Shown here: in pieces, positions 8,330-24,326 of the stretch
Layout of the letters: each line of letters opens with the position of its first letter
Numbering within the stretch: position 1 is the stretch's first letter
Assembly: GCA_001767435.1 (NCBI GenBank)
Contig: MEKT01000157.1
Coordinates: 1 to 32,174, forward strand
Length of the DNA: 32,174 bases
Direction: 5' to 3'
From: Acidobacteria bacterium RIFCSPLOWO2_02_FULL_65_29
GTDB taxonomy: Bacteria > Acidobacteriota > Vicinamibacteria > Vicinamibacterales > CAVVIG01
Translations under genes and position numbers: made by a program
The notes under the pieces: model-generated
The model's database searches: none
Told to the model about the DNA's origin: nothing
Seen by the model: only the letters and a program-made list of their open reading frames with translations

Positions 8330-9955
8330 GCGAGGGATTCGCCCAAGCAATTCCCGCGCTCGAACGCCGAACTGCCCATCGTCGGCGATCTGCTCGGCGA
8401 AGCCGCGCGCGTCGTCCCGGCGTCCCAGGTTGAAGCTCGCCGCGGCGGCGTTGAACCAGCAGTTGGCGCGCATGCGGGCGTTGGCGGCGATTTGCTGCTC
8501 GCGCTTCGCGATCTGGCGGTCGCGCCGCTCGGGCGTGAGATTCGCCGCCGTTTGGAACCGCGCGATCTCGCCGCGCAGCGCCGCTTCTTCCTTGTCGAAG
8601 CACCGGGCCGAGTCGCCGGCCACCTGCGCCGACAGATCCCACTCGCGCTGCTCGGACAGGACGATCTGCAGGTAGTGCCCCGTGTCGCAGTCTGCTCGCC
8701 GCTTCAACGAGACCTCGAGGCGCTGCCGCGCGACGTCGAGCTGCCGGCGATTGATCGCGATGATGCCGGCGAGCTTCGGCACGTCGGGGTTCACCATCAG
8801 ACGCTCGGCGAGCTCCACGTCTTCCCACGCCAGGTCGTGCTCGTCGAGCTGTTCTTCATTGAGCGCGCGCCAATAGCGGGCGTCGCCGGGATTCCGCCCG
8901 GTGGCCAGCAACTCGTCGGTCGCGGCAATGGCGTCGGTGTGGCGCGTGAGGTACGTGAGCGTGCGAATCCTTCCGAGAAGCGCATCGGCGTGCCCAGGCA
9001 CGAGCAGCAGTGTCTTCCCATAGAAATCGAGCGCGCGATCGAAGTCTTCGGCCGTCATCGCGGTATTGGCGATCGCGATCGTCACCGAGGGCCAGTGCGC
9101 GCGCCACTCGTACGCCGCGCGGAACGCCTTGTCGGCCGCCTCGAGGTCCGGCGTGCCGCCCGGCGCGCCCGGCCGCGGCTGCCCGGCGAGCGCCGCGAGG
9201 CCCAGATAGAAATGCACCTCGCCAAACCGCGGCTCCTGGTCGAGTAGCCGCTGCAGGACATCCACGCGTCCGCGCGCGCAGGCGACTGTGTCCTTGAAGG
9301 CCACGAGTGGCGCGCTCGCCGACTCGCCCACGATTGCGGCGCGATCGGCGCTGCCTGCAACCTGGGATCCGTAGACCCCACAAGCAAAGGACAGCCAGAA
9401 GTACGCCCCGACACGATCGCCGGGTATCCGCTCGCGCAAAAACTCCGTCCACGGTTTCTGACTCTGGGAGAGCCGGACCATCGACAGCGTCTGCGACTCG
9501 AGCGTGACGATGCTCATCGGCCCCGCGGGTCCGGCAACGATCACATCGGCCATCTCGGCGATCGGGGCCAGTTCGGGCGCCAACAGCGGAGCGGCGTCGA
9601 GCATCTGATGCGCGCTTCTCAGGTGCCCGCTGTCGAGGAAGCCGAGCTCCTGCTCGCGCACCGAGATGAGCATCCCGCTGCGAATGGCCGCCGCGGTCGC
9701 CGTCCCGCCCACGATCGGATCGTCTCGAAGCGTGAGGAAGTCGCGGTAGGCGTCGAGCAGGCAGTCGAGACATCCGGCCAGCATCTGCGAATTCGCCGCC
9801 TCGAGCCGCGCCGTTGGACTGGGGCCGGCGGTCGCGATGACGGCCGGCGCCTTCGGCGCGCACGCGCCGAGAAGGCTGGCGAGCGCTAACAGAGCACACG
9901 CGGTCCGGCTAAAGCCGGACCCTACGACGGCGCCTCGCTTTATGGCTACTCGCAC
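8327..9955 (-). CDS. TPR-containing lipoprotein
   Basis: A 542-residue product if read from GTG 9955. The start is uncertain because the 5' region carries a palindromic repeat and there is no clear SD. The N-terminus gives a lipoprotein signal, LLALASLLGAC, with an ideal lipobox; the cysteine follows about 35 residues after the GTG. The mature part is alpha-helical: a first region of about 180 residues (with LDCLLDAYRDFLTLRDDP), then TPR-like units from about residue 200 (WLSFACGVYGSQVAG, VHFYLGLAALAG, DFDRALDFYGKTLLLVPGHADALLGR, ARYWRALNEEQLDEHDLAW, GHYLQIVLSEQREW) to the end. It probably acts as a scaffold on the periplasmic side of a membrane; partner unknown. Confidence 0.75.
   Translation of the reverse strand: MRVAIKRGAVVGSGFSRTACALLALASLLGACAPKAPAVIATAGPSPTARLEAANSQMLAGCLDCLLDAYRDFLTLRDDPIVGGTATAAAIRSGMLISVREQELGFLDSGHLRSAHQMLDAAPLLAPELAPIAEMADVIVAGPAGPMSIVTLESQTLSMVRLSQSQKPWTEFLRERIPGDRVGAYFWLSFACGVYGSQVAGSADRAAIVGESASAPLVAFKDTVACARGRVDVLQRLLDQEPRFGEVHFYLGLAALAGQPRPGAPGGTPDLEAADKAFRAAYEWRAHWPSVTIAIANTAMTAEDFDRALDFYGKTLLLVPGHADALLGRIRTLTYLTRHTDAIAATDELLATGRNPGDARYWRALNEEQLDEHDLAWEDVELAERLMVNPDVPKLAGIIAINRRQLDVARQRLEVSLKRRADCDTGHYLQIVLSEQREWDLSAQVAGDSARCFDKEEAALRGEIARFQTAANLTPERRDRQIAKREQQIAANARMRANCWFNAAAASFNLGRRDDARGFAEQIADDGQFGVRARELLGRIPR
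9902..9921. repeat. Perfect 20-bp palindromic repeat inside a signal-peptide region
   Basis: GGTCCGGCT-AA-AGCCGGACC, with 9-bp arms and a 2-nt loop. It falls within the signal-peptide coding region of the TPR lipoprotein, where the minus strand reads GSGFSRT. Such GC-rich hairpins are often repeated many times per genome (REP-like). No second copy was seen in this window. Confidence 0.6.
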
Positions 9956-9980
9956 CAAGCCATGACTCCGTGCCAACGAA

Positions 9981-10001
9981 TGGCCGCGAGCGCAGCGGCC
10001 A
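9981..10001. repeat. Small palindrome between ADOP and TPR genes
   Basis: TGGCCGC and GCGGCCA, 7-bp arms around a 7-nt loop. It lies in the 124-bp gap between the ADOP permease gene (ends 10080) and the TPR lipoprotein gene. It could be a terminator-like hairpin or a repeat, but no T-run follows. Confidence 0.4.
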
Positions 10002-10079
10002 CTTGATACCGAGCAGCGCGGCGTGGAGAAATGTGCGCGACAGTCGGTTAGACACCGGTTGTTCCATTGTGGCCACGTC

Positions 10080-12578
10080 CTACTGACAGCGCAGCGCGAT
10101 CGACGGATCGACACGCGTCGCACGCCGCGCCGGAATGAACGCCGCCAATGCCGCAACGCAAGCGAAAAGCAGGGCCACGCCGAAAAACGTCGCCGGGTCG
10201 AGTGGCGTCAGACCGAAGAGCATCGCGTTCAGGTACCGCGTGACCGCAGCCGCACCGGCAGCACCCAGAACCATGCCAACAGCCGTCAACGCGATGCTCT
10301 GGCCGAGGACCAGCTTCATCACTTGTGAACGCCTGGCGCCAAGCGCCATCCGAATTCCAATCTCGCGCGTCCGCTGAGCCACTGAATACGCCAGCACACC
10401 ATAGATCCCGATGGCCGACAGCGCGGTCGCGACGCCGGCAAAGAGCGCGAGGAGAACGGCGTACATGCGCGGCCGCGAAATCGTGCTCGCCACGAGCTCG
10501 GTCATCTCGGCCACGTGGAACAACGCGGACCCAGCCTCGAGATCGCGAACGATGCCACGGATGCTGGCAGTCACGACCGCGGGATCCACCGATGTACGAA
10601 CCGCGAAGTAGGCGCCACCCGGAAACAGCGGGCCCGTCCCCGTCCATTGGCGGAGGTCGGCGAAGAACTGCGGCTCGGGTTCCCGGTCGAGGCCAAACTG
10701 CCGCACGTCGTCCACGACGCCGACGATCTCCCACGGAACGATATCGCGTCCCATGAAGACCGGGCGTCCAAGCGGATTCTCACCAGCGAATTCTCGGCGC
10801 GCGAGCAATTCGTTGACGAGCAGCGCGCGCGGCCGCCCGGCTCCGTCGGTTTCGTTGAAGCCGCGGCCGGCGGCGATGCGAATGCTCATCACGTCGAGAT
10901 AGTCTTTGCTCACGAATCGAGCGTCTGGCGCATCCGGCGTCGGCCGCCTGTTGGGATCGGGCCACTTCCACAATCCTCCGGCCGTGTCCCTCAGGCCGAT
11001 CATCGGGAGCTGGTTCGCATAGGCCGCCGAACTGACGCCAGGCACGAGCCGCAACCGCGCCACCAGCTCCTCGGAGAACGTTCTGAGCCGTGCGTCCGGA
11101 TAGCGATCGAGCGGTAGACTCACCTGAAACGTCAACACGCCGGCCGGGTTGTAACCGGGATCGACGCGCGAGAGGGCAACGACGCTCCGCACCAGAAGCC
11201 CGCCGCCGACGAGCAGCATCATCGCCATCGCGATTTCTGCGACGACGAGAGCGGATCGGACGCGCAAGTGACCCCAGGAGCCGAAGCTCGAATAGGCGGT
11301 CGCGGCGCTTTCTCGGAGGACATCCATCTGACTGGCGCGAGCCGCGTACAGCGCAGGCGCGAGCCCGAAGATCACTCCGGCGACCGTGGCGATGGCGGCG
11401 GTGAACGCCAGCACGTCCGTGTTGAGAACAACCTCGTCGAGCCGCGGCAAGCCGCCGGCAGGAAGATCGATGCGGGTCAGCGTCGTGCCCAGGTCCTTCA
11501 GGAGCGCGATGCCGCCCAGCGCCAGAAACGCGCCCGCGACGCCGCCGGCCGCCGACAGAATCAGGCTCTCGGTCAGCAAATGACGAATCAAGCGGCCGGG
11601 CCCCGCGCCGAGTGCCACGCGGATGGTCATCTCGCGGTGCCGCGATGCGCTTCGCGACAACAGCAGGTTCGCCACGTTCACGCAGGCGATGAGGAGGACG
11701 AAGCCGACGGCCACCGTCAGCGTCAGCAAAGCGGGCCTGACGGGCGCCACCAACGCGTCCTGCTCGCGCACGAGGTCGTAGGTGGTCGCCGGCGCATGTC
11801 CTCTGATAGCGCGGACGATCGGGCCGACTTCGGCCGCGGCTGCCGCGAGCGCGACCCCGTCCGACAGGCGGGCAACGATCGAAGCGCGAGGCGCGGCGCC
11901 GCCTGCGACAGCCTGAAACGGCGTCCAGAACTGCGTCTGACGGTTGGGAAACACGAAGGCAGGCGGCATCACGCCAACGACCAAGTAGCGGGTCTGACGC
12001 CGTGGGCCGAGCACCGAATCGAAGGTCAGCGTGCGGCCGACCGTCCGCGGGTCGGCGCCGAAATGCCGCTGCCACATCGAGTGGCTCAACAGCATGACCG
12101 CCTCGGCGCCTATAGCCTCGTCGGCCGGATTGAACGCGCGCCCGACGAGCGGCCGCACGCCGAGCATCGAGAGGATCGCGGCAGATACTCGTGTGCCATG
12201 CAGGCGGGCACCCTCTTCGGCGCCGTTCAGCGCAAGCAGGAACGCGCTCGCCGTGCCAATGTCCGAGAGCGTCCGCGTCCGCGACTGCAGGTCGGCAATC
12301 TCGGCGGCCGTCAGGCTGACCGCCGCCCGCAACGGCGCGCGTGTCGGCGAATCGGCCGCCGTCAGGTTCGCCATCACCCGCACGAACCGCTGCGAGTCCT
12401 TATACGGCAGCGGCTTCAGCAGGACGGCATTGACGACACTGAAGATGGCCGTGTTGGCGCCGATGCCCAGCGCGAGCGTCAGGACGGCGACCGTCGCAAA
12501 GCCGGGATCCCGGGCCAGAGACCGCAGCGCGTACCTGGTGTCTTGCCGGAGGTCGTCGAGAACGCCGAGCGCGGTCAC
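10080..12578 (-). CDS. ADOP-type orphan ABC transporter permease (MacB/FtsX-like)
   Basis: An 832-residue product from GTG 12578. The start is set by a GTGA overlap with the stop codon of the M56 gene; the ORF opens further upstream, but that part is antisense-like within the M56 gene. It begins with [21 protein letters not shown] and a first TM helix at about 25-50 ([27 protein letters not shown]), the signature of acidobacterial duplicated orphan permeases. A MacB-type periplasmic domain follows, then an FtsX domain near 290-410 ([31 protein letters not shown]), a second periplasmic domain, and a second FtsX domain at the C-terminus ([28 protein letters not shown]). No ATPase subunit is encoded nearby, as is usual for ADOPs. 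Substrate unknown; it is probably controlled by the BlaI-type repressor of the same operon. Confidence 0.92.
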
Positions 12579-14236
12579 GGCCGGATCACGAAATTTGCCG
12601 TCACCTTCATGCGCACTTCGATGGGCTCGCAGTTGAGCAGCGTCTGCGAGAATTCCCATCCGCGAACCGCTTCGACCGCCTCGACGCCGAGGTCGGGATC
12701 GGGCGTGTTGACGACCTGTACCTCACGAACCGTTCCATCGGTATCGATGCGCGCGTCGAGCACGACGACACCACCGGTGCCGGCGAGTCGCGCGTTCTCG
12801 GGGTATCGCGGCCGAACGTCAACGAGCTTCCGGGGCGCCTTGATGTTGCCGCCGATGGGTCCAGGCGAGCCGGCACACGCGGGCGCCTCGCGCGGAACGC
12901 GGGATGCCCCGCGCACAACGCGCACAACAGGCTTCCCAGCCGACGCGGCCGAGGCGCTTGCCGTAATGGTGATCGTCTCTTCCAGCGATCCGACTTGCAG
13001 GGCGAGGTCCCGCTGGACATCGCGACCGATGACGGTGACCGTCCCCTTGAGTTTGGCAAACCCCATGAGCTCCGTCTCCCACGTGTAGTCGCCAGGTGGC
13101 AGCCCGACGAACTCGAACCGGCCCGTTCCGTCGGTCTGCACCTCGTGTTTCGCCTGGCTCTGGCTGTTCGTGAGAACCAGCCTGACGCCCGGAAGAACTC
13201 GATTCGACGGGTCGAAGACCGATCCCGAGAAGGTCACGAACGTCTGCGCGGCGCCGAGGCCCGCGATAAGTACGGTCATGGCCACGACGGCCATCGTGGT
13301 GGCGATCCGCGCCGGGCGCGTGAGGGGACTGCGATTCGTGCTGCCGTTCAACATGGCGCTGAATCTCCTTTCGAGACTCGACGGGCGGGCCATTGCCGGT
13401 ACCGGAAACCAGGGCTGGCGCTCGTCCCGGATCGATCGGGCGAGATCCAGCAGATGCGTCGCGTACTCGGGAGCCTCGACGCCCCCGCCGAGCACGGCGT
13501 CGTCGCAGGCGTGCTCGCTTTCCTGACGGAGGCGTTTCGACGCCATCCAGATGAGCGGATTGAACCAGTACACCGCGCGCAGGCACTCGGCCGCGAGCTG
13601 CGTCAGCCAGTCGCCGCGCTGGATGTGCGCGAGCTCGTGCAGGAGCACCACGCGAATGCGATCGTCGGACCATTCGCCCGCCCCGGCCGGCAGGATCACA
13701 GTCGGTCGCCGGAAGCCCCAGGTGACCAGCAGCGTCGGATGGTCGCTCTGGAGGAGCCGCACGGGCCGGCGGAGTCCCCACGCGCGCGAGAGATCCGCGG
13801 CCAACTCGGCCCACGGCCCCTCAGTCACCCGCTGCGATCGCGTGGCGATTCTCGAGAGCCGCCAGAACCCGGCGGCCAGGACGAACAGACTCAGCCCGGC
13901 GCCTGAGGCCCAGACCCAGCCGATCAACCGGCCTGGATCGTCGACCCCGCCGGGTAACACGAACAGCTCGCTCGCGGAGCCCGGCGCTGCCGTCGACGAG
14001 GTGGCCGCGCCGATCGGATCGGCGGGCTGCGCGGCGCGGGACAACGCCGCGGGCGGGCTGACGTTCCACCGAGGCGCGAGAGGTCCGACAAACGGCGCCA
14101 CAGCTGCGCACACGACAGCCGCCGACAGCAGCCAGTGGCGCAAGGCCGCCGACCGGCGCCGCAGAAGAGCCGCTGCTGCGAGCGCGGCGGCGATGATGAC
14201 CGAGGCCTTGATCGCGCTTTCCAGCAGCAGACTCAT
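12575..14236 (-). CDS. M56 (BlaR1-like) membrane metallopeptidase with carboxypeptidase-regulatory and TonB C-terminal domains
   Basis: A 553-residue product from ATG 14236. Four hydrophobic segments (about 8-25, 36-52, 105-124, 310-330) frame a cytoplasmic zinc-peptidase loop with HELAH at 200-204 and the third-ligand region ESEHACDD at 239-246. After the last helix comes a carboxypeptidase-regulatory-like domain (about 334-415; [21 protein letters not shown]) and a TonB C-terminal-like domain (about 465-552; [28 protein letters not shown]). BlaR1-type proteins sense an outside signal and cleave the BlaI repressor. Here the sensor is not a penicillin-binding domain but a TonB-like one, so the signal must differ. 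ATG overlaps the repressor stop (ATGA), and its own stop overlaps the ADOP start (GTGA). Confidence 0.92.
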
Positions 14237-14619
14237 CGCGCACCTTCCTTTCGGGCTTTCGCAATCAACTCGGCGATGCGGTCGAGCTCCTCGTCGGACA
14301 ATCGCGCGCGTTCTCCACCCAAGAGCGCGGCCACCGTCTGCTCGGCCGACCCGTCGAAGAACGTCTCCATCAGGTGCTTGAGCGCCGACTTGCGCGCGGT
14401 GCGCCGGGTCACCGCGGGCGCGTACACGTAACGCAGTCCCTGCTCGTCGTGCCGAACGTGGCCCTTCTCCTCCAGCACGCGCAACTGGGTGCGCACGGTG
14501 GAATCGCTCGGGTCGCCCGGCAGGTCCCCCATGACTTCGCCCGCCGTGGCCTTGCCGCGCCGGTACAAGATGTCCATGATCTGCCGCTCGCGTCGCGTCA
14601 GGTGGATGGCTTTCGTCAT
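14233..14619 (-). CDS. BlaI/MecI/CopY-type repressor
   Basis: A 128-residue product from ATG 14619. An in-frame extension to GTG 14658 would run through the -10 region and operator and is rejected. The N-terminal winged helix reads LTRRERQIMDILYRRGKATAGEV, with recognition-helix region DSTVRTQLRVLEEKGHVRHDEQGLRYVYAP. The C-terminal dimerisation helix (ALKHLMETFFDGSAEQTVAALL, then SDEELDRIAELIAKARKEG) is typical of BlaI/MecI. Such repressors are inactivated by the partner M56 peptidase, encoded immediately downstream with a 4-bp overlap. It probably represses its own operon through the palindrome at 14619-14634. No SD is seen; the 5' leader would be only about 20 nt. Confidence 0.92.
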   Translation of the reverse strand: MTKAIHLTRRERQIMDILYRRGKATAGEVMGDLPGDPSDSTVRTQLRVLEEKGHVRHDEQGLRYVYAPAVTRRTARKSALKHLMETFFDGSAEQTVAALLGGERARLSDEELDRIAELIAKARKEGAR

Positions 14620-14634
14620 GTTACTTATATAACA
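14619..14634. promoter_or_regulatory. Putative BlaI-type operator overlapping the repressor start
   Basis: The imperfect palindrome TGTTA-CTTATA-TAACA has 5-bp perfect arms and ends on the A of the repressor ATG. A related half-site lies 20 bp upstream; the minus strand has GTGTTAT at both places. AT-rich dyads of this kind are bound by BlaI/MecI repressors. It sits between the transcription start and the start codon, a position where binding would block elongation or initiation. Confidence 0.6.
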
Positions 14635-14645
14635 CTTCGGCGATA

Positions 14646-14674
14646 TACATAACACCACCGCCGGCGTGTGTCAA
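14646..14674 (-). promoter_or_regulatory. Promoter of the repressor-M56-ADOP operon
   Basis: On the minus strand TTGACA (14674-14669), a 17-bp spacer, then TATGTA (14651-14646). Transcription would begin near 14640 and yield a leader of about 20 nt containing the operator palindrome. The -35 box overlaps the stop codon region of the upstream P-type ATPase gene (stop at 14671-14673). Confidence 0.7.
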
Positions 14675-17217
14675 GCGCCAGCTTCAGCGCTGCCAGCGCG
14701 GGCCGCGGGCAGGCGCCGGACCCGGAAAAACCACCGCTTGAGCGCCTCGGTCGCGACGACGTACAGACAGGCGATCGCGCAGAGCGTGAGGAGCAGCGAG
14801 CCCGGCAGCGGCACGAACCCGAGCAGTCCGACGAACGGCAGATACGGTATCGCCACCGCCACCGCGACGAGCACCGCCGTGGACGTCGCAAGCAATGTGC
14901 CCGGCCGGCTTCGGAAGAACGGCCGGCGCGTCCGCACCACAAGCGCGATCACGAGCTCGGTCAGGAGCGATTCGACGAACCACGCCGTGCGGAACAGGTT
15001 CGGCGCGGCCCGAAACGGCCCGAGCAGCACCAGAAACGTCATCACGTCGAAGACCGAGCTGAGCAGACCGTACTCGACCATGAACCGGCCGATGAACCGG
15101 ATGTCCCACCGCTCAGGCCGCGCGACGAGCTCCGGATCGACGCGGTCGTCGGCCAGGCCGATGGCTGGAATGTCCGACAGGAAGTTGTTGAGCAGGATCT
15201 GCCCGGCGAGCAGCGGAAGAAACGGCAGAAAGAGCGACGCGACCGCCATGCTGAGCATGTTGCCGAGATTGGCGCTCGTGGTCGTCAACACGTATTTGAG
15301 CGTGTTGGCGAACGTCCGGCGCCCTTCTTCGATGCCGCGGCGGATCACGTCCAGGTCTCGCGCCAGCAGCACGAAGTCGGCCGCTTCGCGCGCGACGTCG
15401 GACGCGTGCTCGACCGACAGGCTGGCGTCGGCCGCGTGCATGGCGGGCGCGTCGTTCACTCCGTCGCCGAGAAATCCGACGACGTGCCCTGTCTTCTTCA
15501 GGGCCAGGATGATGCGTTCCTTCTGATCCGGATCGACCTCGACGAACAGATCCGTCCGCTCAGCCTCGTGCCAGAGCGCCTCCTCGTGCATCTCGGCCAG
15601 ATCCGCGCCGGTCAGCACGCGCCCGGCGCGCAGCCCGACGAGCGCGGCCAGGTGCTGCGCAACACGCTTGCTGTCGCCCGTGATCAGCTTGACCGATACG
15701 CCGAGCCTCGCGAGATTCGCCACCGTCTCGGCGGCGCCTTCCTTCGGCCCGTCGACGAAGGTCAGGAATCCTTCGAACGTCAAATCGCGCTCATCCCCAC
15801 GGCCGTATGCCGGCTGCCGTTCGAGCACGCGCGTGGCGATGGCGAGCACCCGAATGCCACGACCCGCCCACTCCGCCGAGCGCGCCCGCAAGCGATCGCG
15901 TGCCTCCGCGTCCAGGTCCGCGCCGTCCGAGAATCGCGTGGAAGCCTCGAGGACGTGATCGAAGGCGCCTTTGGCGACGAGCAGACGCTGTCCATCGCGG
16001 TCGACGATGACGCTCACGCGCTTACGGACGAAGTCGAATGGAATCTCGGCGTGCTTGACGACGCGCGACAGGTCGGGCTGCCACGCCTGCGAGATGGCAT
16101 CGTCGAGTGGGCTGCCCAGACCGGTCTCGAGTGAGGCGTTGATGGCGGCGAGCGTCAGCACGCCGGCCGACCGGTTGCCGGAGGGATCGTAGGCGCCCTC
16201 GAGCTGTACCACGCCTTCGGTGAGCGTGCCCGTCTTGTCGGTGCAGAGGACGTCCATGCTGCCGAGGTTCTCGATCGCGTTCAGTCGCCGGACGATCACG
16301 CCGTGGCGCGCCATCATCTCGGCGCCACGCGCGAGGCTCACGCTCAGAATGGCCGGGAGCAGCTCGGGACTGAGCCCGACGGCGAGCGCGACAGAGAACA
16401 GCAGCGTTTCGACCGGTGGCCGCCCACGGATCATGTGCGCGGCAAACACAAGGAGCACCAGTACGAACATCGCGCTCGTGAGCAGGTATCCGAAGCGGCG
16501 GATGCCGCGGTCGAAATCCGTCTCGGGAGGACGGAGCGTGAGGCGATGGGCAATCGCGCCGAATTCGGTCGACGGCCCGGTCCGCACTACGAGGCACCGG
16601 GCCATGCCGCTGCGGACGTTCGTGCCGAGAAACACACAGTTGGTGCGATCGCGAACCGCGGCCGACACGGGCACGATGCCGGGCCTCTTTTCGACCGGAA
16701 AGCTCTCGCCGGTGAGCACCGCCTCGCTCACGAAGAAGTCGGCCGCCTCGAGGACGACGGCGTCGCCCGGAACGAGCGATCCGGCCGAGAGCACCACCAG
16801 ATCGCCCGGCACGATGTCTTCGAGCGGGACCGTGACGCTCATGCCGCCGCGCACCGCGGTGGTCCGCGTGCGCACCGTCGCCTGCAGCGCGGCGACGGCG
16901 GCGTGGGCGCTGTACTCCCTCGAGTAGCTGATGCCGACGCTCGCCACCACGATCACGAGCACGATGGCCGCATCGACGAGTTGGCCCGTCGCGACCGACG
17001 CAATGGCGGCGAATACGAGAATGAGCAGGAGAGGATTGCGCAGTTCGCTGGCAATCGCGCGCGCGCGCGAAAAGGACGAGCGGGACCGCAACTGATTGGG
17101 GCCGGCCGACCGCAAGCGCGTCTCGGCCTCGGCCTGCGACAGACCGTCTGGTCCCGACTGTAGGCGGTCGGTCAGCGTCTCGCGCGCGAGTGTCCAGTAC
17201 GCCTCGACGGGCGTCAC
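14671..17217 (-). CDS. MgtA-type (P-IIIB) magnesium-translocating P-type ATPase
   Basis: An 848-residue product from GTG 17217, set by the GTGA overlap with the preceding stop. Domain order: cytoplasmic N-terminus (1-60), TM1-2 (61-95), actuator domain with TGES at 169-172, TM3-4 with AVGLSPELLPAIL at 279-291, phosphorylation site DKTGTLT (Asp327), nucleotide-binding part with KGAFDHVLE (416-424), hinge GDGVNDAPA (584-592), then C-terminal helices. The M4 sequence and the C-terminal RPERWDIRFIGRFMVEYG block match MgtA/MgtB rather than Ca2+ or Na+/K+ pumps. The usual DPPK before the hinge is DGPK here. It would import Mg2+ across the inner membrane. It is the last gene of an operon with an L,D-transpeptidase and an unknown exported protein. 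Confidence 0.9.
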   Translation of the reverse strand: MTPVEAYWTLARETLTDRLQSGPDGLSQAEAETRLRSAGPNQLRSRSSFSRARAIASELRNPLLLILVFAAIASVATGQLVDAAIVLVIVVASVGISYSREYSAHAAVAALQATVRTRTTAVRGGMSVTVPLEDIVPGDLVVLSAGSLVPGDAVVLEAADFFVSEAVLTGESFPVEKRPGIVPVSAAVRDRTNCVFLGTNVRSGMARCLVVRTGPSTEFGAIAHRLTLRPPETDFDRGIRRFGYLLTSAMFVLVLLVFAAHMIRGRPPVETLLFSVALAVGLSPELLPAILSVSLARGAEMMARHGVIVRRLNAIENLGSMDVLCTDKTGTLTEGVVQLEGAYDPSGNRSAGVLTLAAINASLETGLGSPLDDAISQAWQPDLSRVVKHAEIPFDFVRKRVSVIVDRDGQRLLVAKGAFDHVLEASTRFSDGADLDAEARDRLRARSAEWAGRGIRVLAIATRVLERQPAYGRGDERDLTFEGFLTFVDGPKEGAAETVANLARLGVSVKLITGDSKRVAQHLAALVGLRAGRVLTGADLAEMHEEALWHEAERTDLFVEVDPDQKERIILALKKTGHVVGFLGDGVNDAPAMHAADASLSVEHASDVAREAADFVLLARDLDVIRRGIEEGRRTFANTLKYVLTTTSANLGNMLSMAVASLFLPFLPLLAGQILLNNFLSDIPAIGLADDRVDPELVARPERWDIRFIGRFMVEYGLLSSVFDVMTFLVLLGPFRAAPNLFRTAWFVESLLTELVIALVVRTRRPFFRSRPGTLLATSTAVLVAVAVAIPYLPFVGLLGFVPLPGSLLLTLCAIACLYVVATEALKRWFFRVRRLPAARAGSAEAGA

Positions 17218-18350
17218 CGCGCGCCCGCCTGCTCGCCGGGCGGGCGCCGGTCGGCGGCCGATGCGCGCGCGCAGATCTGGTCGATGCGCGCCAGCACGGC
17301 CGCCTCGTCGGCCGGATCGCGCGGCACGTCGAGTCCTTCCTCGAGTTGCAGCTCGATCTTGAACCACCAGTTCGGTTGAAAGGTCGCGTGGACGGGGACG
17401 TTCGCGAGCGCGTCGGTGAGACCGTGCGTCACCGAAAATCGCGTGACGTGGCCGGTCGCGCGGTTGCGGATCGCGTACTCGCCTTTGACGAGATCGCGGA
17501 ACGTCCGCGAACGCGTCCTCAGCTGGCCGACGCGCTCGAGCGTCTGGAGCCGCAGATCGTACTCGGCGCCCTTGTAGACGTACACGATTGGCGCGATCCG
17601 CGGCGGCCACGGCTCGCCGCCGCGGACGGCCTCGGTGCCCGCGTGAATCATTCGTTCGAGCGCGGTCAGCAGTCCAGGCGCGGCGCCTTCCGAGCGCGCG
17701 GTCTGCCGCCGCTCCCAGCGGCGGGACGTAGCCAGGACCTCCAGGAGACCTCCGAACTGCCGATAGGTCACGTCGCGCCCGGCCCGAACCGAGGTGACCC
17801 AGGCCTCAGCGGTCGCCAATCCCGTCATCGAGCAGATGGCTCCGTACAAGGCCGGACCGGCGCCCGATGCGAGCCTGGCCTCCGCTTCGTCGAGCGAATC
17901 GGCGTCCGTGATGCTGCGAACGCCAAACGCGACGGAGGCCTCGCCGCGCTCCTCTTCGCGGATGTAGCCCCATTCGTTGATGCCGCGAGGCGCCTTCGCC
18001 GGGTCCGATCCGATGAGGAGGGCGAGCGCCCGCGCCCCGTCCTCGCGGGTGCGGACGGTCGCGCGGGCGCCACCGACGTTGTCGCTGCTCACCCAGAAGA
18101 GCAGCAGCCGTACGCGTCCGACAATCCGGTAGCGATAGTCGGCCGAGACGGCGAACGCTCCACGCCCCTCCTGCGCGACCAGCGAAGGCGATCCACCGCC
18201 GGCGCCGGCCGCAGTCGTGGCTTGCAGCCGGGATTCCCCGCCCGAACGCTGGTCCTCGATCAGCGGGAGCCGGCCACCAAGCCCGGAGAGCGAAAGTGAC
18301 GCCGCCGTCGCGAGGCCGAGACATGTCCGGCAGACGCCAATGGCGATCAT
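17214..18350 (-). CDS. Unknown conserved exported protein in the Ldt/P-type ATPase operon
   Basis: A 378-residue product from ATG 18350, set by an ATGA overlap with the L,D-transpeptidase stop. An N-terminal signal (residues 1-26) suggests export. The body has a conserved-looking RVRLLLFWVSSDNVGGARATVR block, then LIGSDPAKAPRGINEWGYIREEE, a helical central part (GLLTALERMIHAGTEAVRG) and a C-terminal part with IVYVYKGAEYDLRLQTLERVG and PNWWFKIELQLEEG. No domain is recognised. No catalytic motif stands out; the overall look is of a binding or structural protein of the envelope. It overlaps both neighbours by 4 bp, so its amount is probably tied to both. Confidence 0.8.
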   Translation of the reverse strand: MIAIGVCRTCLGLATAASLSLSGLGGRLPLIEDQRSGGESRLQATTAAGAGGGSPSLVAQEGRGAFAVSADYRYRIVGRVRLLLFWVSSDNVGGARATVRTREDGARALALLIGSDPAKAPRGINEWGYIREEERGEASVAFGVRSITDADSLDEAEARLASGAGPALYGAICSMTGLATAEAWVTSVRAGRDVTYRQFGGLLEVLATSRRWERRQTARSEGAAPGLLTALERMIHAGTEAVRGGEPWPPRIAPIVYVYKGAEYDLRLQTLERVGQLRTRSRTFRDLVKGEYAIRNRATGHVTRFSVTHGLTDALANVPVHATFQPNWWFKIELQLEEGLDVPRDPADEAAVLARIDQICARASAADRRPPGEQAGAR

Positions 18351-20047
18351 CGCGGTGACAGGCCCTGATGGCTCGAGATCATCTGAGCGTCGAGTCTCGC
18401 ATCGTGACCGTAGATGTCTTCAGCAAACCTGACGGCGCCATCGGGCATGACCGCTGCCGTCGTGTAGAAGAGGATCACCTGAATGGGCCGCTTCACGGCC
18501 ACGTGGAGCGTCTGCGGACCCGCCATCGCCGACAGGATGCGGTCGCGGGTCCATTCCGGCTGCTCGGCCAGTACCCACTCGGCCAGCCTCACGGGATCCT
18601 CGACCCGCACGCAGCCGTGGCTGAAATCACGGCGGCTCCTGGCAAACAGCGCCTGTGCCGGCGTGGCGTGCATGTACACGTTCTCTGCGTTGGGAAACAC
18701 GAACTTGACCAGCCCCAGCGCATTCTGGGGTCCGGGACGCTGACGCAGCCTGAGGAGCCCCCGTGCGAGCCGCGCGAGGTTCTCCGGCGTCGCCTCCACC
18801 GGCGAGGCGTCGTCGCCTTCTCCGCGCACGATCTCCATGTTCTCTCGGCGCAGGTAATCCGGATCCCGGCGAATCGCCGGAAGCATGTCCTCGCGAAGGA
18901 TCGAGACGGGCACGTTCCAGTATGGCCTGAAGATCAGCTCCCGCATGTCTTCGACGAACACCGGCGTCTGGGTGCCGAGCGCGCGGCCCACGATGACGCT
19001 CATCATGAAGGACGGCGCGCCGTCCGGAGGAATCGAGTCCCACCCCCACAGCTGGAACATCGGAATATTGATCGCGACGAGACGTCGCTCGCCGATGTCA
19101 GGCAGCCATCGCAGCCGCTCGAGCGCCAGCTCGATCTGGCGCACGCGCCACGCCAGGGGAACTGCCAGGGCCGCGTGAGTCTTGCGGCCGAGGATGCCGT
19201 CTTCGTCGAGGCCGTGCCGGCGCTGAAATCGCCGCACCCCCTCCACGACTGCTCCTTCGTACAGCGCGGACGCCGCGGGTACGGGTGCGTCCGCAGGCAG
19301 GTCGCCCATGGAGACCAGCAGGCGAAAGAGCGACTGCACGCTCGCGAACGATTGCCCGGGCCGTACGACGCCGCCGGACGAAAGCGAAGCGATGGCCGAG
19401 GGAGGATTCTGAGCCAGCGATCGGTAGCGAAGCAGAGCGTTGCCCAAGCTGCGGTACTGGGCGAGCGGGGACTGGAGCGCCGACGCAGTTTCGCGGATTC
19501 CATGAGCCGCGAGACTGCTCAGTAGGAGTGCCGGAAAATCGTGTGCTTCGGCCGGAACATGCAGTCTGAAACCAATCGACCGTGGGTCGACGCGGCCCAG
19601 ATGCAGGTCGCTGAACAATCTGAGAACGCTGACGCTCAATGCCGCGTCGAATCGCGCCACGTCCCGGACTGGCGGCGTCGCTTCGCGCTGAAGCAACGAG
19701 GCCAGGCTCGCGAGCTCGCCATAGCGATAGTCGTCCCGGGCGAGACCATCGTCGGCTGCCCGCTCGACGAGCGCCAGGGCATCGCGCGCGTCCTCGTTCG
19801 GACGGCCGGGCGGCTCTGTCCACAGCGGCGAGTAGGCCTGTGGCTCATAGAGGGCCGCCAGAGCCGCGCGCTCGCTCGCTGCCGGCGCCCCCGATACATG
19901 GGCGTCGGCCACACTCGCCCGGATTGCGGCGGCCACCTCGTTGGAGAACGGCTGAGCCGCCGCGCGAGCTGGTTGAGGGAGCGGCGCGGTGTCGGAGCAG
20001 GCCGGCACGCCGAGCAGTGCCGCCATCAGCAACGGCTTGAGCATCAT
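18347..20047 (-). CDS. L,D-transpeptidase, YcbB/LdtD type
   Basis: A 566-residue product from ATG 20047 (a second ATG at 20044 is equally possible; GAGGG lies directly upstream). The N-terminus is a signal with a cysteine after VPA (LLGVPACSD), so a lipoprotein is possible. The order fits LdtD: an N-terminal scaffold (about 35-230) with QAYSPLWTEPPG, a peptidoglycan-binding-like part (about 255-295; AVVEGVRRFQRRHGLDEDG), and the YkuD catalytic domain (about 322-520) with YMHATPAQ (His460) and SHGCVRVEDP (Cys479). It would make 3-3 cross-links in the periplasm using tetrapeptide donors. First gene of a three-gene operon. Confidence 0.93.
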   Translation of the reverse strand: MMLKPLLMAALLGVPACSDTAPLPQPARAAAQPFSNEVAAAIRASVADAHVSGAPAASERAALAALYEPQAYSPLWTEPPGRPNEDARDALALVERAADDGLARDDYRYGELASLASLLQREATPPVRDVARFDAALSVSVLRLFSDLHLGRVDPRSIGFRLHVPAEAHDFPALLLSSLAAHGIRETASALQSPLAQYRSLGNALLRYRSLAQNPPSAIASLSSGGVVRPGQSFASVQSLFRLLVSMGDLPADAPVPAASALYEGAVVEGVRRFQRRHGLDEDGILGRKTHAALAVPLAWRVRQIELALERLRWLPDIGERRLVAINIPMFQLWGWDSIPPDGAPSFMMSVIVGRALGTQTPVFVEDMRELIFRPYWNVPVSILREDMLPAIRRDPDYLRRENMEIVRGEGDDASPVEATPENLARLARGLLRLRQRPGPQNALGLVKFVFPNAENVYMHATPAQALFARSRRDFSHGCVRVEDPVRLAEWVLAEQPEWTRDRILSAMAGPQTLHVAVKRPIQVILFYTTAAVMPDGAVRFAEDIYGHDARLDAQMISSHQGLSPR

Positions 20048-20092
20048 CCCTCAGAGTGTTCCGAGCGCCGGAATGTCGGCGCGGGCCGGCGC

Positions 20093-21523
20093 TCATCCTT
20101 TGATGCAGACAAGCGGCTCGAGCCTCGCCACCTTGCGAGACAAGCCCGCTCGATCCGCAGCGTCGACGACGGCTGTCACGTCCTTGTACGCGCCTGGCGC
20201 TTCCTCGGCGACGCCGCGCGCCGACGGACTTCGTATGAGAATGCCTCGACTCGCCAGCTCCTCGATCACCTGGCGGCCATTCCACTGTCTGAGCGCCTGA
20301 TGGCGGCTCATGCTCCGGCCAGCGCCGTGGCACGACGACCCGAACGATCGCGCCTCGCTGCCGCCGGCTCCCACGAGCACGTAGGAAGCGGTGCCCATGG
20401 TCCCGCCAATCAGAACCGGCTGGCCGATCGCCGACAGTGCGGGCGGCAGGTCGGGATGACCGGGGCCGAAGGCGCGCGTCGCGCCCTTCCGGTGCACGAA
20501 CAACCGCTGGGTGCGGCCGTCCATCTGGTGCGATTCCACTTTGCAGGTGTTGTGCGACACATCGTAGAGCAGCGTCAGCTGCGACCGCGGCACGACTGAA
20601 TCGAACGCGCGGCGCACCAGGTGCGTGATGATCTGCCGGTTCGCCAGCGCGCAGTTCGTCGCCGCCCGCATCGCTCCGAGATACGCCTCCCCCTCCGGAG
20701 AGTCGATCGGGGCACAGGCGAGTTCCCGATCGGGCACGTCGATGCCGTACCCCGGCGCCGCGAGCACCATGCGCTTGAGAAATTCCGTCCCGATTTGGTG
20801 GCCCAGCCCGCGCGATCCGCAGTGGATGCTGACAACGACGTCGCCCTCGCGGAGCGCGAAGGCCGACGCCGCCGCAGGGTCGAACACCTTCGCGACGTGC
20901 TGCACTTCGAGGTAGTGGTTGCCCGACCCAAGCGTCCCCATCTGGTCGCGCTGGCGCGTCTTGGCATGCTCGGACACCTCGCCCGGTTTGGCGCCCGACA
21001 TGCGGCCATGCTCCTCGATCCGTTCCAGATCGGCCGCCATGCCGTACCCCTGTTCCACGGCCCAGCGCGCGCCGCCGGCGAGCATGGCGTCCATTTCGGG
21101 GCCGTCGAGGTGCAGACGACCGCCGCGGCCGACACCGGCGGGCACGCTGCGAGCGAGCTCGTCGGCCAGCCGCTTCTTCAGCGGCTCGACGAGCTCCCTG
21201 GTCAATCCCGTTGACAGCAGACGAACACCGCATGAAATGTCGAAGCCGACGCCACCGGCCGAAATGACGCCGCCCTGGTCTGCATCGAACGCCGCCACGC
21301 CGCCAATCGAAAATCCGTACCCCCAATGCGCATCGGGCATGGCGTAGGAAGCCCGCACGATACCTCGCAGGGTCGCGACGTTGGTCACCTGTTCGTAGAC
21401 CTTCTCGTCCATCTCCTTGACGAGCGATTCGGTGCCGAACACGATGCCCGGCACGCGCATGCGCCCGTGTGGTTCGATCCACCACTCGACGTCGGACTTG
21501 CGAGAGAGCAGGGACAGATCCAT
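20093..21523 (-). CDS. rtcB: RtcB-type RNA ligase
   Basis: A 476-residue product from ATG 21523. Family motifs occur in order: ASYAMPDAHWGYGFSIGGVAAF, GVGFDISCGVR (91-101, metal-binding Asp95 and Cys98), GTLGSGNHYLEVQ, VSIHCGSRGLGHQ, YDVSHNTCKVE and SSCHGAGRSMSR with the guanylated histidine. RtcB joins 2',3'-cyclic phosphate and 5'-OH RNA ends using GTP and Mn2+, with archease as activator. The archease gene lies just upstream on the same strand, separated by a 7-bp-period array of 56 bp. No SD is visible; the array sits where it would be. The rtcB start is therefore either weakly translated or depends on read-through from archease. Confidence 0.95.
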   Translation of the reverse strand: MDLSLLSRKSDVEWWIEPHGRMRVPGIVFGTESLVKEMDEKVYEQVTNVATLRGIVRASYAMPDAHWGYGFSIGGVAAFDADQGGVISAGGVGFDISCGVRLLSTGLTRELVEPLKKRLADELARSVPAGVGRGGRLHLDGPEMDAMLAGGARWAVEQGYGMAADLERIEEHGRMSGAKPGEVSEHAKTRQRDQMGTLGSGNHYLEVQHVAKVFDPAAASAFALREGDVVVSIHCGSRGLGHQIGTEFLKRMVLAAPGYGIDVPDRELACAPIDSPEGEAYLGAMRAATNCALANRQIITHLVRRAFDSVVPRSQLTLLYDVSHNTCKVESHQMDGRTQRLFVHRKGATRAFGPGHPDLPPALSAIGQPVLIGGTMGTASYVLVGAGGSEARSFGSSCHGAGRSMSRHQALRQWNGRQVIEELASRGILIRSPSARGVAEEAPGAYKDVTAVVDAADRAGLSRKVARLEPLVCIKG

Positions 21524-21525
21524 GA

Positions 21526-21581
21526 GAGTTCAGAGTTCAGAGTTCAGACTGGCGACTTACGACTTGCGACTTGTGACTTCG
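21526..21581. repeat. 7-bp-period array between archease and rtcB
   Basis: Eight heptamers without a break: GAGTTCA three times, then GACTGGC, GACTTAC, GACTTGC, GACTTGT and GACTTCG. It fills the gap between the archease stop (21583-21585) and the rtcB start (21523) almost exactly and so replaces the place of the rtcB ribosome-binding site. The first unit family changes to the second after 21 bp with the 7-bp phase kept. Confidence 0.9.
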
Positions 21582-21582
21582 A

Positions 21583-22002
21583 TCACACGTCGACCACACA
21601 CTGCGCCAGCCAGGATCCGTCGTCGCGCTCCTCGACGCGGAGCGCCGTGTAGGTCGCCCCCTTGATCTCGACGGCCGGTTCGTGCCGCACCTGATCGATC
21701 GTCTCACCCCAGGCGGTCGCGTGCAATCGACCGCCGTCGATCGCGACGGTGAAGGCGCCGAACACAAGGCGTCGCGTGGCCATTTCATAGACGAGCGCGT
21801 TCAGCCAGTCGACCAGCAGCACGTCGGCGGCGGGCGCTTCGCACGCAACCTGCACGGCAACCTCGGGACGAACGGCCGCCGGGTCGGTGACCGCACCGGT
21901 CAACGCCAGCGCCGCCTGCTCGAACGCCGCTTCTTTCGTCGGTCCCATGCCCCGGATGCCGACGTCGGCGCCGTGCGGGAAATGCTCCCACGCTGCACGC
22001 AT
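21583..22002 (-). CDS. Archease, activator of RtcB
   Basis: A 139-residue product from ATG 22002; in-frame GTGs at 22005 and 22008 and a TTG at 22017 are alternatives, and no strong SD is present. It has the archease pattern: HFPHGADVGIRGMG near the N-terminus (the usual HTAD is HGAD here), AFEQAALALTGAVTD, LLVDWLNALVYEM in the middle and EIKGATYTALRVEE near the C-terminus. Archease binds a divalent metal and speeds guanylation and turnover of RtcB. The rtcB gene follows on the same strand, so the pair is a small RNA repair or tRNA-splicing-like unit. No RNA substrate is encoded nearby. Confidence 0.9.
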   Translation of the reverse strand: MRAAWEHFPHGADVGIRGMGPTKEAAFEQAALALTGAVTDPAAVRPEVAVQVACEAPAADVLLVDWLNALVYEMATRRLVFGAFTVAIDGGRLHATAWGETIDQVRHEPAVEIKGATYTALRVEERDDGSWLAQCVVDV

Positions 22003-22103
22003 CACCACGGGCTGCAAGCCGCCAGAGTCACTCGCGTGGGTTTCATGACGTGGCCTTCACCCTGCAGAAGAGCGACGAGCGGCTCGCCTCGGTCGTTCGG
22101 TCG

Positions 22104-22577
22104 TCACTCCGCGGCAACATCGAGCTGGCGATGCGCACAGATGCCAGCGAGCGCCGACACGACGTCCGTCGCGGCCACGCCCTTGGTGGCAAGGGCGATG
22201 TCGTTCAGCGAAATCACGCCCTGGAGTCGGCCGTTGGCATCGATGACGGGAAGGCGGCGGACTTGGAATGTCTTCATGGCGGCCAGCGCGTCGGTCACCG
22301 CGTCGTCGGGCAAACAGGCGTGGACATGGCTGCTCATCGCCTGCGCAGCCGAAATGTGCTCCGGAAGAAGCCGCCGCGTCGCCGTGGCCATACAGATGTC
22401 GCGATCGGTCACGACGCCTGCCACGGTGCCCGCCGCGTTGACAACGGGGAGGAACCCGCAGTCGTGATCCCACATCAGCTTGGCGGCCGCTGCGAGGTCG
22501 CTGTCCGGACGGCAGATGGCAGTCGGAGCCGACATCAGGTTTCGAACGATCGCGGTCTTGCCGGCAGTCTTTGCCAC
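22104..22577 (-). CDS. Two-CBS-domain protein (paralogue 1)
   Basis: A 157-residue product from GTG 22577, with GAGGAGG 5 nt upstream. Two CBS motifs: about 11-68 (VRNLMSAPTAICRPDSDL to GVVTDRDICMA) and about 78-135 (AQAMSSHVHACLPDDAV to GVISLNDIALA). CBS pairs bind adenosyl nucleotides such as AMP, ATP or NADH and usually control a partner; stand-alone CBS proteins are thought to sense energy state. It is closely related along its whole length to the protein encoded at 28902-29360. It is divergent from the winged-helix/TPR gene across about 260 bp, in which no other gene is seen. Confidence 0.92.
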   Translation of the reverse strand: MAKTAGKTAIVRNLMSAPTAICRPDSDLAAAAKLMWDHDCGFLPVVNAAGTVAGVVTDRDICMATATRRLLPEHISAAQAMSSHVHACLPDDAVTDALAAMKTFQVRRLPVIDANGRLQGVISLNDIALATKGVAATDVVSALAGICAHRQLDVAAE

Positions 22578-22838
22578 GGTGGCCTCCTCGGCTTCGAGAT
22601 CTCGGGGTTTCGAGCGGCAGACTCTCAGAACAAGACATCATGCGCTCAGCTGCCTTCATGGAGCAACGGTCATACCAATGTTGAAATCGCTTCGAAGATC
22701 GACGCGATCGAGTGCATCGAAGCGCGACCGGCCTCGCGTTCGGCGCCGGGCTCGGAGCATGGGAACTTTCTCGCGAGGTGGGGAAAAGTTCGCTCAGACA
22801 GAAAACTGCTTCATGTGTCACGATCGTGGCCTTAGAAG

Positions 22839-24326
22839 ATGTCTAGTGGCGCGCGCTTCGCCTTCGGCTCGTGCGAGCTCGATCCCGTCAGAAGGCGTCT
22901 GACCGCGTCCGAGGAGCCGGTCGCCATCTCCGACCGGCAACTGGACGTGCTCCTGCTGCTCGTCGCGCGGGCCGGTCAGATCGTGTCCAAAGACGAACTG
23001 CTGCAAGCGGGATGGAAAGACGTCGCGGTTGGGGATAACAGCCTGGAACAGGCCATCTCGAGCCTGCGCAAGATGCTCGGCCCCGGCCATGTCGAGACCG
23101 TCGCGCGGCGGGGCTACCGCTTCATCGCGGCCGTCGAGCGTCTGGCCGCGCGCGAAAGCGACGCGGCGCTCGACAATCTCCTGGCGCCGCATCGCGCGTT
23201 CATCGAAGGACGTGCGGCGCTCGAAACGCTCGAGGCCGGCAAGGTGGCCCACGCCCGCGAGGTCTTCGAAGGCGCGCTCGCGAGCGCGCCCGAGCACGCC
23301 TCGTCGCACATCGGGCTGGCCAACGCCTGCCTGATGCAGTTCGAGATGACGCGCGCCGACCCATCGCCAGACGCGGCGGCGCTCGCCGTGGCCGCTCATC
23401 ACGCGCGTGACGCGTGCCGCCTGGATCCGCAGTCTGGCGAAGCCTGGGCGACGCTGGGCTTCGTGCTCGACCGCACCGGCAACCGCGTCGACGCGATCGC
23501 GGCATCGAAACGCGCCACCACGCTCGAGCCCGACAACTGGCGGCATTATTTTCGTCTCTCGTACGTGAGTTGGGGGGAGGAGCGCCTCAGGGCGGCTCAC
23601 CGAACACTGACGCTTCTGCCCGATTTCCCGCTCGCCCATTGGCTGGCGGCGACGGTGCACGTGGCCAGGCAGGCGTTGCCCGAAGCCGAGCGCGAGCTGG
23701 CCGCCGCGCTCGCCATGAAGTTAGACGAGGACCGAACGAAATTCGCGGCCGTGGCCCTGCACTGGTTACATGGCCTGCTCCTCCTCGAGGATGGCGACGA
23801 GGCTCGCGCGATCGAGGAATTCGAGCGCGAGCTGGCGTCTGAACACGCCGGCCACTTGTACGCGCGCGAATGCTCGGCGAACACGTGGTACGCCCTGGGC
23901 GCCCTCAGGCGCCGGCAGGGCCACGCGGCCGAGGCTGCCGCGGCGTTCCAACAGGCCCTCGATCGCGTGCCCGCACACCCGCTGGCGCGCGTCGGCGTCT
24001 CCGCCGCCGGCGGCGCCGATCCCGCTCCGCCGCGCCTCCGGTCGATCGAGCATGCCGCGACCGACGGCGCGGCAGCGAGACGCGCCTTCGGCGCGGAGGT
24101 GGCGGCTCCGCCCGCCTTGTCAGTCGACAGCGCGCTGGTTCGAGCCGCGCAACTCGTCGTCGCCGGCGCACACGCCGACGCCGCCCGACTCGTCGATGAC
24201 GCGCTCGCGCAGGCGCCCGACGGCAATGCCGGGTGGCTGTTGCCCATCGAACCGCTCCTCCACGTGTCGACCCACCCCGATCTCTGGGCTCGCGCCCTCG
24301 CGCGCGTGCGCAATCGCGCATCCTGA
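22839..24326 (+). CDS. Winged-helix (OmpR/CadC-type) regulator fused to TPR
   Basis: A 495-residue product from ATG 22839 with a weak AGAAG SD. Residues 5-105 form an OmpR/PhoB-type winged helix (ISDRQLDVLLLLVARAGQIVSK, ISSLRKMLGPGHVETVARRGYRF), as in CadC and HilA. No transmembrane helix follows, so unlike CadC it is probably cytoplasmic. From about residue 110 TPR-like helices follow (AFIEGRAALETLEAGKVAHAR, AWATLGFVLDRTGNRVDAIA, YALGALRRRQGHAAEAAAAF). A Pro/Ala-rich linker lies near 395-425. TPR regions in such regulators sense a protein or small-molecule signal. Its target genes are not evident; the divergent CBS gene is a candidate. Confidence 0.88.
   Translation: MSSGARFAFGSCELDPVRRRLTASEEPVAISDRQLDVLLLLVARAGQIVSKDELLQAGWKDVAVGDNSLEQAISSLRKMLGPGHVETVARRGYRFIAAVERLAARESDAALDNLLAPHRAFIEGRAALETLEAGKVAHAREVFEGALASAPEHASSHIGLANACLMQFEMTRADPSPDAAALAVAAHHARDACRLDPQSGEAWATLGFVLDRTGNRVDAIAASKRATTLEPDNWRHYFRLSYVSWGEERLRAAHRTLTLLPDFPLAHWLAATVHVARQALPEAERELAAALAMKLDEDRTKFAAVALHWLHGLLLLEDGDEARAIEEFERELASEHAGHLYARECSANTWYALGALRRRQGHAAEAAAAFQQALDRVPAHPLARVGVSAAGGADPAPPRLRSIEHAATDGAAARRAFGAEVAAPPALSVDSALVRAAQLVVAGAHADAARLVDDALAQAPDGNAGWLLPIEPLLHVSTHPDLWARALARVRNRAS

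Follow-up and report, generated by a model that had tools for sequence, protein, structure and literature searches.

An overlapping three-gene run in an acidobacterial genome and the predicted EipB-like fold of its middle protein

Three neighbouring genes in the genome of Acidobacteria bacterium RIFCSPLOWO2_02_FULL_65_29 overlap one another by four bases, which raises the question of whether they form a functional system or are simply adjacent, and of what the middle gene, whose product has no Pfam match, might do in the cell envelope. The stretch of DNA analysed (hereafter the window) is 32,174 nucleotides long and corresponds to positions 1–32,174 of contig MEKT01000157.1. The minus strand carries all three genes: a YcbB-like L,D-transpeptidase of 566 residues (18347–20047), the middle protein, an open frame of 378 residues (17214–18350), and an MgtA-type Mg2+-translocating P-type ATPase of 848 residues with a GTG start (14671–17217). 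An ATGA (18347–18350, minus strand) joins the transpeptidase stop to the start of the middle gene, and a GTGA (17214–17217, minus strand) joins the stop of the middle gene to the ATPase start; both overlaps and all three frames, as described in the initial annotation, were confirmed by reading the sequence. The mechanical open reading frame of the ATPase begins further upstream, at 17610 within the middle gene, and the GTG at 17217 was taken as its start. Judged from the sequence, the three frames are above chance as open frames, since homologues of all three exist elsewhere.

In the order of transcription the genes on this strand are archease (21583–22017), RtcB (20093–21523), the transpeptidase, the middle protein, the ATPase, BlaI (14233–14619), an M56 peptidase (12575–14236) and a MacB/FtsX permease, with gaps of 45 bp between RtcB and the transpeptidase and 51 bp between the ATPase and BlaI. 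A perfect 9-bp inverted repeat with a 14-nt loop (20063–20094, minus strand) lies between RtcB and the transpeptidase and overlaps the RtcB stop; it is possibly a terminator, and a T run is absent. Scans for promoters and terminators gave one match each, none at the relevant gene borders and none tellingly above shuffled sequence. Exact 4-bp overlaps were found in 60 of the 412 same-strand neighbour pairs at loci of relatives (called with a simple gene caller), and the MacB/M56 and M56/BlaI pairs of the window share them too. Because they are so frequent, such overlaps alone are weak evidence for a special system; they hint at coupling, and in this one genome the three genes would probably share a transcript and be coupled in translation.

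The outer genes can be named with some precision. The transpeptidase scores over the cut-offs for Scaffold, PG_binding_1 and YkuD, i.e. the YcbB-class domain set, and its best match in the PDB is YcbB itself (6ntw, E 1.7e-47). Read by eye, it contains an HX15-SHGC which we take to be the catalytic motif and a possible lipobox ending at Cys17. It thus has the three domains and the SHGC of YcbB (LdtD), and no unusual feature was seen. The ATPase scores 733.2 bits against TIGR01524 (magnesium-translocating ATPase), well over the curated cut-off of 610.75, and the PDB entries closest to it are Mg2+-transporting ATPases (8uy7, E 6.4e-175). These results bear out the earlier assignment of the outer genes to wall cross-linking and Mg2+ transport. 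In contrast to MgtA, no known Mg2+-sensing leader was found: an Rfam search of 9500–23000 at E up to 1 found no Mg2+ riboswitch, and its sole match, to the miRNA-like mir-1781, was dismissed as chance.

From these assignments the initial annotation had proposed an operon responding to low Mg2+ or envelope stress, in which 3-3 cross-links and Mg2+ import would cooperate and the middle protein would be the new part, and had named conservation of the gene order as a check, with an order confined to one genome as the refuting outcome. That all three products probably act in the envelope, and that the overlaps could couple their translation, speaks for this proposal. We therefore turn to the check itself, for which 60 genomes were searched, comprising the window's own genome, 26 more of its family (27 in all) and 33 of its order; the genus is represented by this genome alone, and no homologue of the middle protein exceeds 48% identity. 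The middle protein is present in 24 of the 60 genomes (its own included), the transpeptidase in 20 and the ATPase in 18 (E up to 1e-150). Neighbourhoods were compared at 33 loci of the middle protein (24 from the 60 genomes plus nine more on named contigs), 17 of the transpeptidase (from 16 of the 19 other carriers, leaving out G008, G017 and G038, which gave partial matches) and 19 of the ATPase. The three-gene order is kept at 0/33, 0/17 and 0/19 of these, so that it is unique to the window among the loci examined, and nowhere are any two of the three genes adjacent. At least 2.5 kb of sequence was available on each side at 18/33, 15/17 and 17/19 loci respectively, and some neighbours will lie beyond view. 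The nearest approach is in G041, where about 5 kb separates a transpeptidase from an ATPase on the other strand. At locus L030 the ATPase query found a weak match (26% identity, E 2e-12) some 7 kb away from the middle gene; its low score points to another P-type ATPase, and it was excluded from the count.

Co-occurrence across the 60 genomes tells the same story. The middle protein is found together with the transpeptidase in six genomes (8.0 expected) and with the ATPase in six (7.2 expected), no better than chance, and the two outer genes coincide in nine against 6.0 expected (p 0.13). All three genes are present only in the window's genome (G000) and in G015, where they are on the separate contigs C51, C41 and C80. 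A conserved operon of the three genes was accordingly rejected, and with the order absent from every relative examined, the only other genome with all three carrying them on three contigs, and no Mg2+ riboswitch in the region searched, a functional low-Mg2+ or envelope-stress operon now seems improbable to us. A somewhat better than even case can be made that compact genes simply fell side by side without a functional link: the order is kept nowhere else, 4-bp overlaps are common, and the homologues nearest to the middle protein (48% identical in G015, 40% in G019) have neighbours other than those in the window. Set against this, two overlaps in a row may reflect some selection for joint expression, and the comparison covers a single genome of the genus. 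Such an accidental arrangement is compatible with what we propose below for the middle protein, and the run itself carries little weight unless it is found elsewhere.

The genes to either side do not extend the unit. RtcB is present in 17 of the 60 genomes, and ten RtcB loci, drawn from the 16 other genomes with RtcB, were examined. Archease adjoins RtcB at nine of them (among L158–L166 and L151), the tenth, L159, having no upstream sequence; L158 has two copies of the archease gene. In the sequence available at these ten loci neither the transpeptidase nor the middle gene was seen, and archease-RtcB was rejected as part of the unit. MgtA and RtcB co-occur in nine genomes against 5.1 expected (p 0.027, uncorrected), and lie about 5 kb apart in G026 and less than 2 kb apart in G016, with other genes between. 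On the other side, the gap between the ATPase and BlaI holds a BlaI-operator-like site (14620–14655, minus strand), made up of a near-palindrome (14620–14633) that, with three mismatches allowed, has no second match in the window, and TAYATAACAC occurring twice, 20 bp apart. If this candidate is a BlaI operator, as its sequence would lead us to infer, its position ahead of BlaI suggests that BlaI and M56 form a unit of their own. In the table of neighbourhood clusters BlaI lies near the middle-protein family at 5 of 24 loci and M56 at 6 of 24, and by tblastn both are near it at five loci, beside a radical-SAM gene; this proximity was not counted as support. The window's own BlaR1-like M56 peptidase, beside BlaI and the MacB permease, has C-terminal CarboxypepD_reg and TonB_C domains.

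We now consider the middle protein, whose family is undescribed and was found here in Acidobacteriota. A scan with two conserved patterns, taking one genome per species, returned 29 loci, 28 of which are titled Acidobacteria, Acidobacteriota or (two) Vicinamibacterales. A Limnobacter match (L138, 26% identity over query residues 101–194) was dropped as a member; with E up to 1 the family profile has no match in that genome, although an empty answer of this kind proves little. An alignment of 29 rows, which took in 19 of the 24 homologue loci and the window, contains 15 invariant columns, including a P-x-W-W located towards the end of the barrel described below. Locus L045 of G003 was left out of it: the homologue there (L045:8519–9373) is interrupted by three stop codons and was treated as two pieces in the neighbourhood tables, and the radical-SAM, M56 and BlaI set beside it is apparently intact. 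The N-terminus of the window's protein is hydrophobic, N-termini across the family resemble signal peptides when read by eye, and relative L048 has an LGAC which, read by eye, we take to be lipobox-like; from these N-termini the protein is probably exported. In the family tree the window protein groups with just two others, L110 and the long-branched L137 (SH-aLRT 97). Cys173 and Cys360 are common to these three of the 29 rows only, and no column has cysteine in more than four rows. A search of the PDB by sequence returned a single match, Runx1 at E 0.76, which is chance.

AlphaFold2 models were made of the window protein (17214–18350; pLDDT 84.3, pTM 0.79) and of a distant member of the family (L113, 7947–8906; pLDDT 87.2, pTM 0.85). 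Both are predicted to contain 14 strands with three helices between strands, and in the window protein these form a beta-spiral over residues ~67–336 that resembles the fold of EipB (DUF1849), followed in the model by an additional C-terminal helix (350–366) which is extra relative to EipB. Fold comparison with the PDB matched the EipB structure 6ntr to the window model with Z 14.6 over 210 residues at 3.8 Å and to the L113 model with Z 14.8 over 211 residues at 3.7 Å. Level with EipB is 9fqr_Xh (Z 14.8 and 14.3 for the window and L113 models respectively), a chain of a bovine sperm axoneme structure. Both lists then drop to the OmpG porin, a 14-strand outer-membrane barrel, at Z 8.3, and this third place leaves some room for a membrane barrel as the true form of the middle protein. 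Foldseek alone placed 6ntr first for the window model (E 1.3e-4) and not among the best 50 for the L113 model. LolA/LolB/LprG-type carriers of lipids and lipoproteins, whose half-barrel beta architecture the middle protein may share, are listed at Z of about 4 to 7.4, the LolA/LolB rows at about 4.7 to 7.4; these scores are in the range of common arrangements, and the barrel of the middle protein is longer.

A review describes EipB, from Alphaproteobacteria, as 14 antiparallel strands in a spiral with three helical connectors; cells that lack it become sensitive to compounds that disrupt the envelope, and the review gives its biochemical role as unknown (PMC10787603). The two models share this architecture, and like EipB the middle protein is probably exported; its relatives, moreover, are often near envelope-lipid genes. 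By sequence the two families differ. The EipB_like profile (PF08904) matched 0 of the 29 family members at E up to 1 and nothing in 21 genomes of the group, the control genomes being silent as well; hhalign of the family against 16 EipB_like proteins gave a probability of 9.6% over 66 columns only. The cysteine pair of EipB_like proteins is invariant in 16 of 16 aligned rows (16 of the 25 loci returned, the profile having matched 45 of 299 genomes), whereas the middle-protein family, found here in Acidobacteriota rather than Alphaproteobacteria, has no family-wide counterpart, Cys173/Cys360 being private to one clade. The middle protein is therefore not EipB by sequence, and the likeness is one of predicted fold; neither the profile, nor hhalign, nor the cysteine pair provides a sequence link that would speak for common descent. 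A fold shared with EipB shows no function by itself. The predicted fold can also be counted in favour of the proposed low-Mg2+ operon. If the models are right, the middle protein is of moderate interest in that it would point to an EipB-like fold among Acidobacteriota. Among the matches listed in the open-access literature, the accessible text mentions neither such an operon nor an EipB-like protein in Acidobacteria.

What the family does may be reflected in the genes around its members. Within 4 kb and on the same strand, a CDP-alcohol phosphatidyltransferase is found at 6 of the 33 loci, an ArnC-like GT2 at 6 (five of which add a YdjC/HpnK-like deacetylase and a PMT-type transferase) and a VTT/DedA protein at 2; lipid-handling genes occur at 14 loci in total, a B12-radical-SAM gene at 7 others, and 12 have none of these neighbours. 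The context queries were picked from the same 33 loci, so that the resulting 21/33 is descriptive and not an independent test. The neighbours identified are genes other than the bamA and lpx expected beside an EipB_like gene. At 8 of the 33 loci an HpnL-like LPG_synthase_TM gene is found no more than 4 kb away, with gaps of 51 to 3013 bp and in two separate contexts; at ~4.1 such genes per genome ~0.1 would be expected near 33 loci, a comparison in which loci of the same clade are not independent. The nine context queries had no match near the transpeptidase (0/17 loci) or the ATPase (0/19). The contexts follow the family tree, with 9 changes against a mean of 19.6 after shuffling, and are stable within clades. 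The window's three-row clade has none of the recurrent ones, and the role of the window protein may differ, since it belongs to a divergent clade that lacks its relatives' contexts.

Two readings of these neighbours deserve mention. ArnC-type genes respond to low Mg2+ in enterics, and the ArnC-like genes near the relatives could be taken in favour of the low-Mg2+ operon weighed above. Alternatively, the resemblance of neighbouring genes to HpnJ, HpnK and HpnL might indicate that the middle protein handles hopanoids, and squalene-hopene cyclase was indeed found in 4 of the 24 genomes carrying the family against 0 of the 36 others (p 0.022, uncorrected for kinship). The NCBIfam scores of the ArnC-, HpnJ-, HpnK- and HpnL-like proteins are, however, all below the curated cut-offs, and the cyclase occurs in only four of the 60 genomes, leaving 20 of the 24 family carriers without it. 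In the window's own genome (97% complete) no cyclase matched at E up to 1e-20, and the hopanoid reading consequently largely fails for this genome; overall we regard it as very unlikely.

Taken with the fold, the neighbourhoods are consistent with the initial annotation's description of the middle gene as encoding an uncharacterised envelope protein. Our own reading, about which we are evenly divided, is of a private gene run, not a conserved system, whose middle product is a periplasmic protein of predicted EipB fold that helps to maintain the envelope via lipid handling. The protein would be exported, fold as a beta-spiral and, as the neighbours of its relatives suggest, handle a lipid or lipid-linked precursor in the periplasm between the inner membrane and the outer layers; alternatively, it might aid envelope assembly, as supposed for EipB. 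Such a separate family, with an EipB-like predicted fold and with lipid-synthesis and flippase-like genes nearby in many relatives, offers a testable role. A narrower version, in which this is a second, sequence-unrelated family of EipB fold that acts as a periplasmic carrier of a glycolipid or phospholipid flipped by HpnL- or DedA-type proteins, is speculative and rather unlikely; if true, it would supply a biochemical role for a fold that in EipB is still unexplained.

Two gene sets at the loci of relatives may be recorded here. A set that recurs in Acidobacteriota, seen for example at L046:4959–10060, comprises BlaI, M56, a B12-radical-SAM protein, the EipB-fold protein and in some cases FKBP; the score of its radical-SAM protein does not reach the cut-off for HpnJ. 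At L113:7262–12406 a cassette encodes an outer-membrane barrel, the EipB-fold protein, a CDP-alcohol phosphatidyltransferase, an NTP transferase, an HpnL-like protein and a weakly Ig-like protein, and this cassette, whose scores are below the NCBIfam cut-offs, may specify a pathway for an exported inositol-type phospholipid.
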